Below the pieces are notes generated by a model. It was given only the letters and a program-made list of their open reading frames with translations, did no database searches and had not been told where the DNA came from. The position numbers and the translations under genes are program-made. This document shows, one piece after another, positions 160 to 5,836 of a stretch of DNA of 64,000 nucleotides (position 1 is its first letter; the number at the start of each line of letters is the position of its first letter). Source of the stretch: Candidatus Ozemibacter sibiricus. GTDB taxonomy: Bacteria > Muiribacteriota > Ozemobacteria > Ozemobacterales > Ozemobacteraceae. The stretch covers positions 1 to 64,000 of the forward strand of contig QOQW01000014.1 in assembly GCA_003327425.1 (NCBI GenBank), read 5' to 3'.

Positions 160-1206
160 TCAGCGGAAGTAGGCGTCGGGGTCGATGCCGGCTTCGCGCA
201 GCGAGGCTTCAGGAGTGGTGGCGGTGGAGGCCATCGCCAGATGGAGATGGGCGGTCTCGCCACGGGTGATGGCGTAGACGAAGCTGGGGTCCAGTTTGGG
301 GTTCTCGCCGCCCTGGGCGGGGGAGTCGGCGGTCGGGATCCAGACGAAGTCGGGGTGGTCCCACAGGGAGCGGGGGTCCCAGGTGCCACCGATGATCTCG
401 CCCCGGCTGTTGACCTGCAGGATGTAGTGGTAGGTCTTGGTGAAGGTCTTGGTGCCGAGGAACTCGGGCTTCACACCGTCATCGGCGAAATAGACGGTGG
501 TGGTGACATGGACCATGCCAGGCAGCCACCAGCGGCGCTTCCATTGGGTCTCGTAGCCGTAGATGGGGTAGTTCCAGACCGCGCGGCTGAAGCTGGTGTC
601 GGCGACGATGGCCCGCTTCTTCTGCTTGATGTTCTCGACCAGCAGGCGGTGGAAGATATGGGGGTAGATATCGAGCGAGAACGGCATCAGGTCATCCTTG
701 CGGCGACCGTAGAACAGGGTGCGGCAGTCCATCCACATCTCGCTCAGCAGGGCTTTCTGGTCGGCGGTGGTGAAGGTGATGCCCTCGAGGGTGCGGGGCT
801 GGCGCGGTTCCGGCTCCATGACGGCGGCCGCGGCCCAGCCGTTGCAGTGGCCGGCCCAGGAGGGCCCGCTGGGGTCGTAATGCCCATGGGCGGGATTGGC
901 TTCCCAGGCATGGGCGCCCGGGTTGCGGCCGGTGCGGGCCTGCACGAAACGGTCATACTTCTTGAAGGGGGCCTCGTTGCCGGCCCAGCCTTTGACCAGC
1001 TTGCCTTCTTTGCGTGACCACCAGTACCCCGACCACGGCTTGGTGGGCAGGAAGGCCTTGTCGGAACCCTCGCCGGTCATGCGCAGCGGGTCGCCCCGCG
1101 CTTCGAGCCGGGGAACCGCCAAAGCGACCACGGCCAGAGCCATGACCAACGGGCAGAGCGAGCGGAAGAAGCGACGGGCAAAATCGGCAGACAACAGGCG
1201 ACTCAT
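160..1206 (-). CDS. Exported transglutaminase-like (elicitor-type) protein
   Basis: This is a 348-residue protein with an N-terminal hydrophobic signal segment (about residues 15-33). The start is the ATG at 1206, preceded by GAGGAGG; an in-frame ATG at 1221 has no such site. The motif SWAGHCNGWAAA places a cysteine at about residue 121 in the context used by cysteine transglutaminase/protease folds. A histidine in YHYILQVN (about 260) and an aspartate in GGTWD (about 277) complete a plausible Cys-His-Asp triad. This resembles bacterial members of the transglutaminase elicitor family; the assignment is by remembered motif, so treat it as moderate. It probably acts outside the cytoplasm on protein or peptide amines. 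The upstream gene's stop codon overlaps this gene's ribosome-binding site, so the two are co-translated. A small GCTGAC/GTCAGC hairpin (146-163) covers its stop codon. Confidence 0.6.
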   Translation of the reverse strand: MSRLLSADFARRFFRSLCPLVMALAVVALAVPRLEARGDPLRMTGEGSDKAFLPTKPWSGYWWSRKEGKLVKGWAGNEAPFKKYDRFVQARTGRNPGAHAWEANPAHGHYDPSGPSWAGHCNGWAAAAVMEPEPRQPRTLEGITFTTADQKALLSEMWMDCRTLFYGRRKDDLMPFSLDIYPHIFHRLLVENIKQKKRAIVADTSFSRAVWNYPIYGYETQWKRRWWLPGMVHVTTTVYFADDGVKPEFLGTKTFTKTYHYILQVNSRGEIIGGTWDPRSLWDHPDFVWIPTADSPAQGGENPKLDPSFVYAITRGETAHLHLAMASTATTPEASLREAGIDPDAYFR

Positions 1207-1217
1207 GGTCGACCTCC

Positions 1218-1907
1218 TCACTGACCGTCGACCAGCGTGCAGCGCACTGCATCGCTGACCATGCGCGTGGCCCAGGGGCGACCGGGCTCCCAGGTCTGGC
1301 GAATCGTTCCCAGAGGACCGCTGGTCTCAAGGGTGACCTCGAACCCGTCGCCGTTCGGCTGCCAGCTCTGATGAACGCCCTCGACGAAGGTCAGGCCGTC
1401 GGCCCGATGGGCGGCTTCGCCGGTGAACCCGCCGGCGGTCGTCTCGCCGGTGCGGGTCTCGGCCGCCAGAGGAAAGAGGGGCAGGTCGTAGGGAATGGGA
1501 CTTTCGCCGCTGAGCAGCGGGGTCAGGCGCTCGCCGTCGAACCGACGGGTGGTGGCCGTGGCCCGCCCATCAGCGCCGGGAGCCACATCGATCACCTGCA
1601 CCGGGCGCAGATCGCTGACCGCCAAGCACAGGATGGCCTGGGTCTTCGATTCGGGCCGGTCGACCGGGGTGATATGGAGGACGAAGCAATCGACGCCGTC
1701 GATCTCTTTGCGGTTCTTGACCTCGTACCGCCAACGCTGGGGGGCGGTCCAGGCGTTGCTGCCATCGGCCAGACGCCGGAACGAAGCTTCGATCGTCCAG
1801 GTCTGTCCGATCTGCCAGGACGGCTGAAATCCTTCCCCACATTCGGCCATGCCGGCTAAAAACAGCACCATGGCCAGCACGATCATCCAGGTCCATCCGC
1901 GATCCAT
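1218..1907 (-). CDS. Exported protein of unknown function, partner of the transglutaminase-like gene
   Basis: This is a 229-residue protein starting at the ATG at 1907 behind GAGGAG; the longer open frame upstream lacks a site. Residues 1-22 form a signal peptide ending near GMAECGEG, with a cysteine that might be a lipobox but without the usual small-residue context. The mature part is rich in beta-strand-like, Trp-containing segments (WQIGQTWTIEASF, WRYEVKNR) typical of small secreted beta-sandwich domains. I do not recognise a family. It ends inside the ribosome-binding site of the next gene, so the pair forms a two-gene operon and the proteins probably work together outside the cell. Confidence 0.7.
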   Translation of the reverse strand: MDRGWTWMIVLAMVLFLAGMAECGEGFQPSWQIGQTWTIEASFRRLADGSNAWTAPQRWRYEVKNRKEIDGVDCFVLHITPVDRPESKTQAILCLAVSDLRPVQVIDVAPGADGRATATTRRFDGERLTPLLSGESPIPYDLPLFPLAAETRTGETTAGGFTGEAAHRADGLTFVEGVHQSWQPNGDGFEVTLETSGPLGTIRQTWEPGRPWATRMVSDAVRCTLVDGQ

Positions 1908-2248
1908 CGTCTTGCTCCTCGTTGTCCTCGGCGTTCGATGAAGTTCGCGGAACAATGAGCAAATCACGTGCCACTGAATGCCAGGGAGGAATTCGGAGAG
2001 TTCTCTCTGGTCCCAAGGCGACGGTAACCTGTGGGCGACCCTCGCCGGCTAGCCGCAGGCGTTCGCTGGAACCGCCCCGTGGCCTGGTCGTCCCCTCCTG
2101 GCAAGAGGTACCCGCGGCTGCGGGCGCTCCGTTCGGAGGCCTCCGCTGCTCGAATTTCCGCCGCGGCCCGCTGGCTTTCCGGCATGCCGGCTAGTCTGAA
2201 CCCATCCGGCAGCCTCCCCAGGCTTCTTTTTCTTTTCCACTTCTCTCA

Positions 2249-2264
2249 TGTTCCACGTGGAACA
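2249..2264. promoter_or_regulatory. parS: parS centromere site (ParB-binding)
   Basis: TGTTCCACGTGGAACA is a perfect 16-bp palindrome that matches the bacterial parS consensus (TGTTnCACGTGnAACA). It extends to 18 bp as ATG...CAT. ParB/Spo0J binds this site, spreads, and loads SMC for origin segregation. parS sites cluster near the replication origin in most chromosomes, so this window may lie in the origin-proximal domain, although no parAB, dnaA or gid genes are here. A chance exact match of this length in 64 kb is very unlikely. Confidence 0.88.
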
Positions 2265-2378: not shown

Positions 2379-3470
2379 TTACCGGTGACGCACAACTATC
2401 ACGTCTGAAACGGTCGAATAGTGCTCGCCTTTCCAATCGAACTCAATCCGCCGCCCGGGATTGTTCCCGCAGCTGTCCAAGTAAGCGCTGATCTTTGCCT
2501 CCATGAGGGGCTTTGCCCGCTTCAGCTTCCACGAATCGAAATAGTTCCGCTGGTCTACAAGCACGAGGAACAACCGATTCGAGGCGTCAAACCGACGTTC
2601 GCCTTGATTCTCGTAGAGCCAGCGAATCACATCCGTTGGATCTTGTTCGATCTTAGCCACCAGTTCATTGCGAAAATTCTGAAGCTCCGCAACAAGTCGC
2701 TTGCACTGATCGGACGGGTGATCCGACACTTTGGCCCAAAGGTCCTGGAGCAAGGCTGAATCAGCCAAATCTGTTGCGATGGGTAGGTCGTTCTCCCGCG
2801 CCGCCCGCTTCAACAGTGTAAGCTCTGGCCGTTGGTTGGCGATTTTGCGCTTCTCAGAAAGGTAGCCTTCAGGCAGATACGTCACCTTCAAATCGAACGG
2901 TGTATCGCGAACGAAAAAATCAACCTTCTTCACCAACCCGACCGCTGGCAGCACGTTTGGGTGATCCTTGAAGATATCTTCGATGATTATGGACGTCCAA
3001 TGGTTATACCAGGAGCAGATGACATAGCCTCGCATACTCGTGAGCAATTCGTTTTCCACACACCGGCAAAGAGCCTCGTAGTCGGTGATTTTCTTCACGT
3101 AGTTGTCCACGATGGTCTTTTCCAGGCTGTTCTGGTGAAGGCCTCCCCAATTGAACTCCTGCACGCGGTAAAGCTGGTTCACCAACTTTGCTTCGCAGGC
3201 ACGACGCTGTTCACGCTCTTCGCCGTAGATTTCACGGGCGCATGCCTCAATCGAAGCAATTCTGATGCCAGCGTTGAACGCGGCCTCAAAGAGTTGGCGT
3301 GAGCCGACGTCCGGTCGTGGTATACCTGCGAATTGAAAGAGCCGTTCGAGATACTCAGCGCGGTTCAGGGAACGCAGCTTGAGAAAACGCTGACCTTCAG
3401 AATCCGCAACAAGTTCGTTTAGCTTATCTTGGCGAAACAGGGCATCAGCTTGGGCAAAGGTGAGCGGCAT
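2379..3470 (-). CDS. Putative type II restriction endonuclease (PD-(D/E)xK type)
   Basis: This is a 363-residue protein. The start is the ATG at 3470 with AAAGGAG, a site formed by the last codons of the methyltransferase gene that ends 3 bases upstream, so the two are translationally coupled. Around residues 184-195 the stretch VDFFVRDTPFDLKVTYLP offers Asp184, Asp193 and Lys195 in the spacing of a PD-(D/E)xK nuclease core. The rest is mostly helical and not recognised as a named restriction family. The function is inferred from the fold signature plus the adjacent methyltransferase. GC content is visibly lower (about half) than in surrounding genes and codon choice is more mixed, pointing to acquisition by transfer. 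Confidence 0.72.
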   Translation of the reverse strand: MPLTFAQADALFRQDKLNELVADSEGQRFLKLRSLNRAEYLERLFQFAGIPRPDVGSRQLFEAAFNAGIRIASIEACAREIYGEEREQRRACEAKLVNQLYRVQEFNWGGLHQNSLEKTIVDNYVKKITDYEALCRCVENELLTSMRGYVICSWYNHWTSIIIEDIFKDHPNVLPAVGLVKKVDFFVRDTPFDLKVTYLPEGYLSEKRKIANQRPELTLLKRAARENDLPIATDLADSALLQDLWAKVSDHPSDQCKRLVAELQNFRNELVAKIEQDPTDVIRWLYENQGERRFDASNRLFLVLVDQRNYFDSWKLKRAKPLMEAKISAYLDSCGNNPGRRIEFDWKGEHYSTVSDVIVVRHR

Positions 3471-3472
3471 GA

Positions 3473-4948
3473 TTACTCCTTTGGTGTCGGCAGGCTGGGC
3501 ATCCATCCCGGGATGTCTGTGAGCGAGGGAGAAGCGACCGCCGAGCCGGAAAACACTAGCCCATAATCCACGCGCAACGCTCCCTCCCGATTATCCTGGA
3601 CGACCGACGCTGCCGAGTACACCAGCGGGAAACAGCCGCAATACCCCATGCCTGCCTTGTTTGCGCTCCCCGAAAAGCTCTCCAGAAACTTCCAGCTCTC
3701 CTTCGTACGCGCGTTGAAGAACAGCACGAGGGAGCCGCTGTCGCTCAACTTGCGACTCGCGATTTGCAGAAACCGCGACATCGCCTGATTGTAGTCGTGC
3801 GTTTTCTTGACGCGCTCCTTGGCATTCGACACCACGATCTCCGATTCAAACGGAGGTTCTTCGCCAAGGATGACGTTCCACATTTCCGACAGCTCCAGAT
3901 ATGGAATGCGGTCACCATGTGGTGGATCGGTGATGATCAGGTCAACGGACTTGTCGGGAATCTGTGGGAGCAGCGCTAGACAATCTCCAGCCAAAATCGC
4001 GTAGTCCGCACCGCCGGCGCAAACCGCCGGGAGACCGCCTGCCTTGCCCGAGTCCTGAGCCGGTTTAGATTGCTCGACCGCCTTGATGAGTTTTTGAACG
4101 CGATGCTCAAAGCAATTCCACACATTGATTTCAAAGTGCTGAGCCGGTCGCCAATAGCCGATGACCCAGGAACCAACTTCCATCCGCTTGTTGCTGACGC
4201 CGGTTGTCTTGCCCCGACCCGTGATGGCAAAGACCATTTTACTCATTTGGCCAACCGCCGCAGTCAAGGCGAGCCGCATTGGTTCTTGCGCTGCTTTGGG
4301 CAAATCGTCAATTGCAGCCAGCAAGAGCTCTATGTTGCGCAGCGCCCGGCCCGTGAACAGGTCCTTCAGCGTGAGTGATGGCGAGGAATTGATGCGCGAG
4401 TTCGTGAAGAAGCGTGGCGCACGCAACCGCTGTGGTTGGTAGGACGCGAACCGCTCAACGAGCGCGAGATCGTGTTCGGATGGTGGCAACTCGACGCGAT
4501 TGCGGTTGTACCCGTTCGTCAACCAGACCTTTTCCATCACGCCGTTGCACCAGACGTAATGCGTGGCGGGCTTCTTCTCCGCCGTGGCGTAGCTGTCGAG
4601 AATGGCCTCTTTGACAAGCGTGCTGACCCGTTCGAGCGCATCATGAAGTACGGAAGCTGCCGGTGGGGAAACCAGCATCCGAGTCAGCCGGACACCAATC
4701 GGGTTGATATCTATGCCGACAAAGCGCCGTCTTAATTGAACCGCCTCCAATGCCGAGATTCCAGAACCGAGGAAAGGGTCAACCACCAAACCGCCTTTCT
4801 GAGAAAGCTGTTGAATCAGATAGCGCATCGGTTCAGCCGGTTTTTTTCCCCAGTATTTGTGGAACGCGTAAAGCCCGCGATACGCTGCCGGGTCAGCAAG
4901 CGTACTAGCGGTAAGTGGAGTAACGAATTCAGGAAAGGTAAGTTGCAT
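3473..4948 (-). CDS. DNA methyltransferase of a type II restriction-modification system
   Basis: This is a 491-residue N6-adenine or N4-cytosine methyltransferase. The AdoMet-binding motif I is DPFLGSG (about residues 57-63), followed by the acidic motif II in GIDINP. The catalytic motif IV is DPPH (about 341-344). Motif I precedes motif IV with a long segment between them that probably holds target recognition, an alpha-class order. The start is the ATG at 4948 with GAAGG about 10 bases upstream; a TTG at 4966 is the alternative. It should protect host DNA from the nuclease encoded immediately downstream. Its lower GC content matches the nuclease gene and differs from both flanks. Confidence 0.82.
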   Translation of the reverse strand: MQLTFPEFVTPLTASTLADPAAYRGLYAFHKYWGKKPAEPMRYLIQQLSQKGGLVVDPFLGSGISALEAVQLRRRFVGIDINPIGVRLTRMLVSPPAASVLHDALERVSTLVKEAILDSYATAEKKPATHYVWCNGVMEKVWLTNGYNRNRVELPPSEHDLALVERFASYQPQRLRAPRFFTNSRINSSPSLTLKDLFTGRALRNIELLLAAIDDLPKAAQEPMRLALTAAVGQMSKMVFAITGRGKTTGVSNKRMEVGSWVIGYWRPAQHFEINVWNCFEHRVQKLIKAVEQSKPAQDSGKAGGLPAVCAGGADYAILAGDCLALLPQIPDKSVDLIITDPPHGDRIPYLELSEMWNVILGEEPPFESEIVVSNAKERVKKTHDYNQAMSRFLQIASRKLSDSGSLVLFFNARTKESWKFLESFSGSANKAGMGYCGCFPLVYSAASVVQDNREGALRVDYGLVFSGSAVASPSLTDIPGWMPSLPTPKE

Positions 4949-4988
4949 TGCGGTTGTGACCTTCAACTCTTAAGCACACTGAGCCATA

Positions 4989-5001
4989 GGTCCGCCAATC
5001 G
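4989..5001 (+). repeat. Right 13-bp direct repeat flanking the restriction-modification pair
   Basis: This is an exact same-orientation copy of GGTCCGCCAATCG found at 2300-2312. It lies between the methyltransferase start and the end of the next gene. Confidence 0.55.
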
Positions 5002-5017: not shown

Positions 5018-5836
5018 CTACTCGAACACCATGACCGGCTGAACGTATTTCCGGACGATGGCCTGGCCGTTCTTCGACAGCACGAATTCGATGAACTTTG
5101 TCACTGCGGGAACGGGCTGCTCGTCGCGGTAGACCAGCACGAAGGGCCGCCCCAGCGGATACTGGCCCAGGCTGAGGGTGTCCTGGGTGGGCAGGACGCC
5201 GTCGATGGCCAGATAGCGGGTCAGCCCCTTGTCGCCGATCATGGCGGCGAAGGTGATGGCGGCAGGATTGGCCGCGACGTACTCGAGGTTTTCCTGGTGC
5301 GTCGGAAACGCGAAGGACGGGGAGGCCAGGGGTTGGCCGCCCATCACCACCTCGCGGAACTGCCCGACCACGCCGCCTTCTTCACCCGCCCGATACAGGG
5401 TGATGATCGGCCGATCGGGGCCGCCGACCTGCTGCCAGTTGGTGATCTTGCCGGCGAAGATATCGGCGAGCTGGCCCATGGTCAGGCTGGTGACGGGGTT
5501 GTCCGGATGGACCGCGACCACCAGCGCGTCGTAGCCGATGACCCGGTTGGCCAGGCCTGATTCGAGTTCGGCCTGGGTCAGCAGGCGCGACAGGCCGCCG
5601 ATGGCCGCCTTGCCCTCTTTGACGGCCGCAAATCCCTGGTTCGAACTGGAGGCCCGGATGTCGCCGAAGGGAATGCCGGTCTCGGCGGTGAAGGCCTGAG
5701 CCAGTTCGGGCAGCAGGGCATCGCCGATGGAACTCGACCCTTCGTAGGACAGGTCGGCCCCGGCGGCGTTGCACAGACCGGCGATCTGGAAGAGCCCTGC
5801 CAGCAGCAGGCAGAGCCACATGTGATGGCGGATCAT
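5018..5836 (-). CDS. PstS-like periplasmic substrate-binding protein
   Basis: This is a 272-residue protein with a signal peptide (about residues 1-26, ending NAAGA). The mature part has the PBP-like fold used by phosphate-binding proteins: GSSSIGDALLPELAQAF at the start, ASSSNQGFAAVKEGKAAIGG as the anion-binding loop region, and TMGQLADIFAGKITNWQQVGG, a signature of PstS and PstS-like proteins. The C-terminal FIEFVLSKNGQAIVRKYVQPV is also typical. The ATG at 5836 follows AAGGAGG. No pst permease or ATPase genes are present, so it may serve a distant transporter or act as a sensor or scavenger. It sits 16 bases after the STAS-like gene and is probably co-transcribed with it. Confidence 0.82.
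   Translation of the reverse strand: MIRHHMWLCLLLAGLFQIAGLCNAAGADLSYEGSSSIGDALLPELAQAFTAETGIPFGDIRASSSNQGFAAVKEGKAAIGGLSRLLTQAELESGLANRVIGYDALVVAVHPDNPVTSLTMGQLADIFAGKITNWQQVGGPDRPIITLYRAGEEGGVVGQFREVVMGGQPLASPSFAFPTHQENLEYVAANPAAITFAAMIGDKGLTRYLAIDGVLPTQDTLSLGQYPLGRPFVLVYRDEQPVPAVTKFIEFVLSKNGQAIVRKYVQPVMVFE

Follow-up and report, generated by a model that had tools for sequence, protein, structure and literature searches.

A single chromosomal parS site, linked neither to parB nor to the dnaA-gyr genes, is probably read by a lone ParB in the source genome (G000), where it would most likely serve as the entry point of SMC without a canonical ParA. This reading draws on the identity, rarity and conservation of the site, on the ParB and SMC proteins encoded in the genome, and on a search in which no canonical ParA was found. 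The window is the whole stretch of DNA that was analysed (64,000 nucleotides), and G000 is a 58-contig draft of 5.68 Mb that is 97.9% complete. The comparison covered two genomes of the same genus (G002 and G001), the family Ozemobacteraceae (f1), and a sister family in the same phylum (f3). The named relatives of a neighbouring 968-aa protein come from MAGs of Ca. Ozemobacteraceae (87% identity) and Ca. Riflebacteria (74% identity), and we infer that the host belongs to Ca. Riflebacteria, Ozemobacteraceae.

Sequence and Rarity of the parS Site

The core of the site is the 16-bp palindrome TGTTCCACGTGGAACA at 2249–2264, which matches the parS consensus exactly, and the perfect palindrome reaches 18 bp (ATGTTCCACGTGGAACAT, 2248–2265). 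The site lies between genes; its closest ORFs are a 249-aa gene on the minus strand, which starts at approximately 1967, and a restriction-modification (R-M) ORF ending at 2379. The first-pass annotation had reported a perfect 16-bp intergenic parS palindrome with an 18-bp extension, and all of this was found as described. The site and its neighbours are as follows:

160–1221, minus strand: transglutaminase-elicitor-domain protein; left flank, syntenic in G002
1218–1967, minus strand: 249-aa gene with no assigned family; lies left of parS, with synteny in both congeners
2212–2247, no strand assigned: conserved element CCTCCCCAGGCTTCTTTTTCTTTTCCACTTCTCTC; adjoins parS, also retained in G001
2248–2265, no strand assigned: parS, 16-bp core within an 18-bp perfect palindrome; recognised by consensus match, rarity and syntenic conservation in a congener
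2300–2312, no strand assigned: 13-bp direct repeat, copy 1; bounds the R-M cassette
2379–3506, minus strand: 375-aa ORF, putative restriction component; no family match, assigned from its pairing with the methyltransferase
3473–4966, minus strand: DNA methyltransferase (N6_N4_Mtase; PADLOC type II MTase); cassette member, absent from G002
4989–5001, no strand assigned: 13-bp direct repeat, copy 2; bounds the R-M cassette
5018–5836, minus strand: PstS-like periplasmic binding protein; right flank, synteny shared by both congeners

The ParB consensus used for scanning was TGTTNCACGTGNAACA. With up to two mismatches allowed, parS was the only match in the window (shuffled sequences gave 0.03), and with up to one mismatch the whole 5.68-Mb draft contained no other match. 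At two mismatches, four further positions in the draft matched. The reversed-pattern control gave no exact match in the whole genome. Chance matches with one mismatch are expected 0.26 times per genome at the GC content of G000, and more often in AT-rich members of the family. According to the first-pass annotation, the lack of parB or a motif scattered at background frequency would refute its reading; neither was seen, and the genome has one parB and one site. The clustering of sites that it had named as support did not appear, because parS is the only site found in the genome. The palindrome is a genuine chromosomal parS, an element of a known kind.

ParB and SMC, With No Canonical ParA Found

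G000 encodes one ParB_N protein (E 5e-34), on contig C55, and one SMC hinge protein (E 1.8e-35). The former is a full-length chromosomal ParB with ParB_N, HTH_ParB and C-terminal domains and the GERR motif, and it is close to Spo0J by sequence (E 3e-51). Its residues R148 and G176 are the equivalents of Caulobacter R173 and G201, positions that help to set the preference for parS or NBS and are reported to be absolutely conserved in ParB orthologs (PMC7383237). A cognate ParB with the parS-specificity residues is encoded in the genome. No parS-like palindrome was seen in the 56-bp parB promoter. In another genome (G027, L079:8643–9518), the coding sequence of parB itself contains an exact parS, which encodes VSRET; the f3-type ParA was not found in the family of that genome.

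Canonical ParA (deviant Walker A KGGVGKT, approximately 260 aa) was not found in the 97.9%-complete draft of G000. The ParA-type matches in this genome are long ORFs, mostly of 367–508 aa, which by our reading of length and motif are probably of the MinD/FlhG/CpaE type. With the f3 ParA as the query, the best match in G000 was a 406-aa ORF (E 5e-9). Close ParA proteins (68–100% identity, NQKGGVGKTT) were found only in f3, and the f3-type ParA was absent from all 22 f1 genomes searched, 13 of which are at least 90% complete. The query gave mainly weak matches in f1, the strongest being a full-length but distant relative from G003 (E 2.5e-34, 30% identity).

The N-terminal motif of ParB is a known ParA-binding element (PMC12462528). 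The f3 ParBs begin with KRGLGRGLGALL or close variants, and the alignment showed that the f1 ParBs do not carry this ParA-binding motif. The lack of a close ParA in f1 and the lack of the motif in its ParBs are two independent features that point to the absence of ParA. The lineage appears to have lost the usual ParA, although a parA, like additional parS sites, could lie in gaps, all family genomes being drafts. The first-pass annotation had taken the site to imply a ParABS-SMC system. ParB, parS and SMC of that system are present, whereas canonical ParA was not found in the draft genome.

In many family genomes a 1195-aa protein is encoded at a distance of two genes from parB (L007:4412–7999 on C55). 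It has a ParA/MinD-like N-terminal P-loop and approximately 1000 residues without a family match. It was considered as the canonical ParA and rejected: its P-loop (QGGAGKT) lacks the signature lysine, and ParA-type models match only its N-terminus.

Position of the Site Relative to the Origin

The site lies on contig C2, 2.2 kb from the left end, parB lies on C55, and dnaA-DciA-gyrB-gyrA lies on C14. The contig sizes place parS at least approximately 32 kb from dnaA and at least approximately 89 kb from parB. The cumulative skew of C14 reaches its minimum at 97.8 kb, close to dnaA (92 kb), which probably places the replication origin on C14 near dnaA. The GC skew of C2 is flat over the first 15 kb or so (rising steadily after approximately 12 kb). 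The syntenic contigs keep one skew sign across the locus, positive in G002 bar a local dip and negative in G001, so no skew switch coincides with the site. Near parS there is one imperfect DnaA box (TTTTCCACT at 2233), and no DnaA box cluster was found on C2, C14 or C55. Within approximately 10 kb of parB in G000 there was no site with up to two mismatches (the best had four), and the other f1 parB loci fetched had none with up to one mismatch.

The site might instead belong to a complete ParABS-SMC system and lie near the origin in the ordinary way, as the first-pass annotation suggested; parA and more parS sites would then be missing through draft assembly alone. Most bacteria place parS near oriC (PMC7333895). 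The closeness of parS to the left end means that C2 could adjoin the dnaA contig, and the initially flat skew of C2 would also suit such a position. However, the f3-type ParA is missing throughout the f1 genomes searched, the f1 ParBs are without the ParA-binding N-terminus, the minimum distances separate parS from dnaA and parB, and the skew sign is unchanged across the site in both congeners. We consider this explanation unlikely.

The window opens with the 3′-end of a group II intron (1–127; Rfam match at 56–126), and contig C50 starts with an identical intron end (1–127). Contig joining found no left neighbour of C2, the same intron end opening C2 and C50. The end stretches of C14 and C55 were searched for this intron end without a match. 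Elsewhere on C14, L167:7585–7753 matched Rfam V_AS7, a Vibrio antisense RNA, above the gathering score, which is unexpected in this phylum.

Conservation in Congeners

The flanking proteins of G002 are 82–90% identical to those of G000, and an exact parS (TGTTTCACGTGGAACA) lies between the same genes. Over the 16 bp of parS the two genomes differ by a single change, C to T, exactly at the degenerate base. The intergenic DNA, approximately 1 kb long, has otherwise diverged: besides the gene ends, the alignment covers only a 53-bp block, which ends in parS.

In G001, the flanking proteins are 72–81% identical to those of G000 and 36 bases beside the site are recognisable. The parS position reads approximately TGCTTCC-GGGGACCA, which on this alignment is a decayed parS relic. 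No parS with up to one mismatch was found elsewhere in this 96%-complete genome, and parB is retained despite the decay. Since G001 has parB with a relic site and no other site, parS may be dispensable or replaceable in this lineage.

The 36 bases belong to an element of approximately that length (CAGGC..TTTT..CTTTTCCA.TT...TCATG; window 2212–2247) that is common to the three congeners, including the relic-bearing G001 (L110, about 920–955). It occurs once on C2 and once per syntenic contig, and is absent from C14 and C55. Because it is retained in G001 where parS decayed, the element is conserved independently of parS; it may act as promoter or leader for the minus-strand genes downstream. 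Its minus strand would begin a short ORF (MREVEKKKK / MNKVEKIKG / MSEMEKRKG).

The location of the site and this element, approximately 280 bp upstream of the minus-strand gene pair, would suit an operator, at which ParB mainly regulates the 249-aa and transglutaminase-elicitor genes and does not act in segregation. However, G001 keeps the element without parS, so the two are separable, and in related lineages the sites stand beside unrelated genes. A mainly regulatory role is therefore very unlikely.

The direct repeat that bounds the R-M cassette is GGTCCGCCAATCG (13 bp), and copy 1 starts 36 bases past the site, the distance given in the first-pass annotation. The cassette is absent from G002, which has parS at the same locus; therefore, parS is independent of the cassette, and on this comparison the cassette is a separate insertion. 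That the neighbouring R-M insertion carried parS in, or makes use of it, is scarcely credible, in spite of the short spacing. A chance palindrome is just as improbable: the genome should contain approximately 188 perfect 16-bp palindromes if any sequence is allowed, but the exact consensus is expected only about 0.003–0.005 times per genome, and the site is conserved between species.

parS Sites Across the Family

Most f1 genomes have few sites with up to one mismatch. The loci of these sites differ from lineage to lineage, and none of the sites examined is near parB. Only conserved one-mismatch matches carry weight, since such matches arise by chance too. G012, G017 and G021, three species of genus g4 (L118, L119 and L120), carry an identical one-mismatch parS, TGTTTCACGCGAAACA, between flanks that have diverged. 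This locus differs from the parS locus of G000 and G002 and is an independent analogue. The sites of G011, G023 and G015 are near an RNase PH-Ham1 gene pair. These were considered as one orthologous position, which was rejected: the neighbouring genes are shared, yet the sites did not align together.

Comparison With Known Systems

The site resembles the canonical chromosomal parS of ParB/Spo0J in its exact consensus, its perfect palindrome, its intergenic position and a ParB with the specificity residues. It differs in that it is single and not beside parB, and its proximity to the origin is unproven. In the parA-parB-dnaA-parS cluster of f3 (G032 and G036), the parS consensus and the ParB class are the same as in G000. 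However, parA (259 aa, NQKGGVGKTTT) is directly before parB, dnaA and parS are within approximately 11 kb on the same contig, and parS is approximately 7 kb from parB, near ParA and dnaA.

ParB-parS-SMC systems without ParA are known in Streptococcus pneumoniae and Staphylococcus aureus (PMC7333895, PMC7022226). G000 shares with them an orphan parB, the presence of parS and SMC, and the lack of a canonical ParA. S. pneumoniae has four parS sites near oriC, whereas the only site in G000 is on a contig that carries neither dnaA nor parB. Xanthomonas campestris also has one parS in its genome (PMC7333895), while in G000 ParA was not found. The Noc/NBS system is similar in having a related ParB-fold reader and a 16-bp palindrome. 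However, at the two variable positions the G000 site does not have the NBS bases, and the specificity positions of the G000 ParB are occupied by R and G instead of Q and R; neither the Q173/R201-type reader nor the NBS-type site of that system is present.

Proposed Mechanism and Significance

By analogy with known ParB biology, ParB dimers would nucleate at parS via the helix-turn-helix, close there into a CTP-dependent clamp, and then spread onto adjacent DNA. The ParB-loaded parS would be the most likely entry point of SMC, and the system would run without a canonical ParA. The clamp, the spreading and the SMC loading are all expected from other ParB systems.

We speculate, with somewhat less than even confidence, that the loss of ParA in Ozemobacteraceae freed parS from its linkage to parB and oriC. 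The family would then have approximately one parS per lineage, at differing loci and decaying in some (G001) while ParB persists, as a wandering centromere. The apparent loss of ParA together with the decay of the site, as in the G001 relic, is the interesting part of an otherwise known kind of element.

With this site, an uncultured phylum gains a usable centromere marker. The comparative series, in which parS is present, relocated or a relic, can be used to ask whether ParA-driven partitioning or SMC loading holds parS near the origin. If the loss of ParA frees parS to move, this would bear on the question of what drives parS clustering (PMC7333895).
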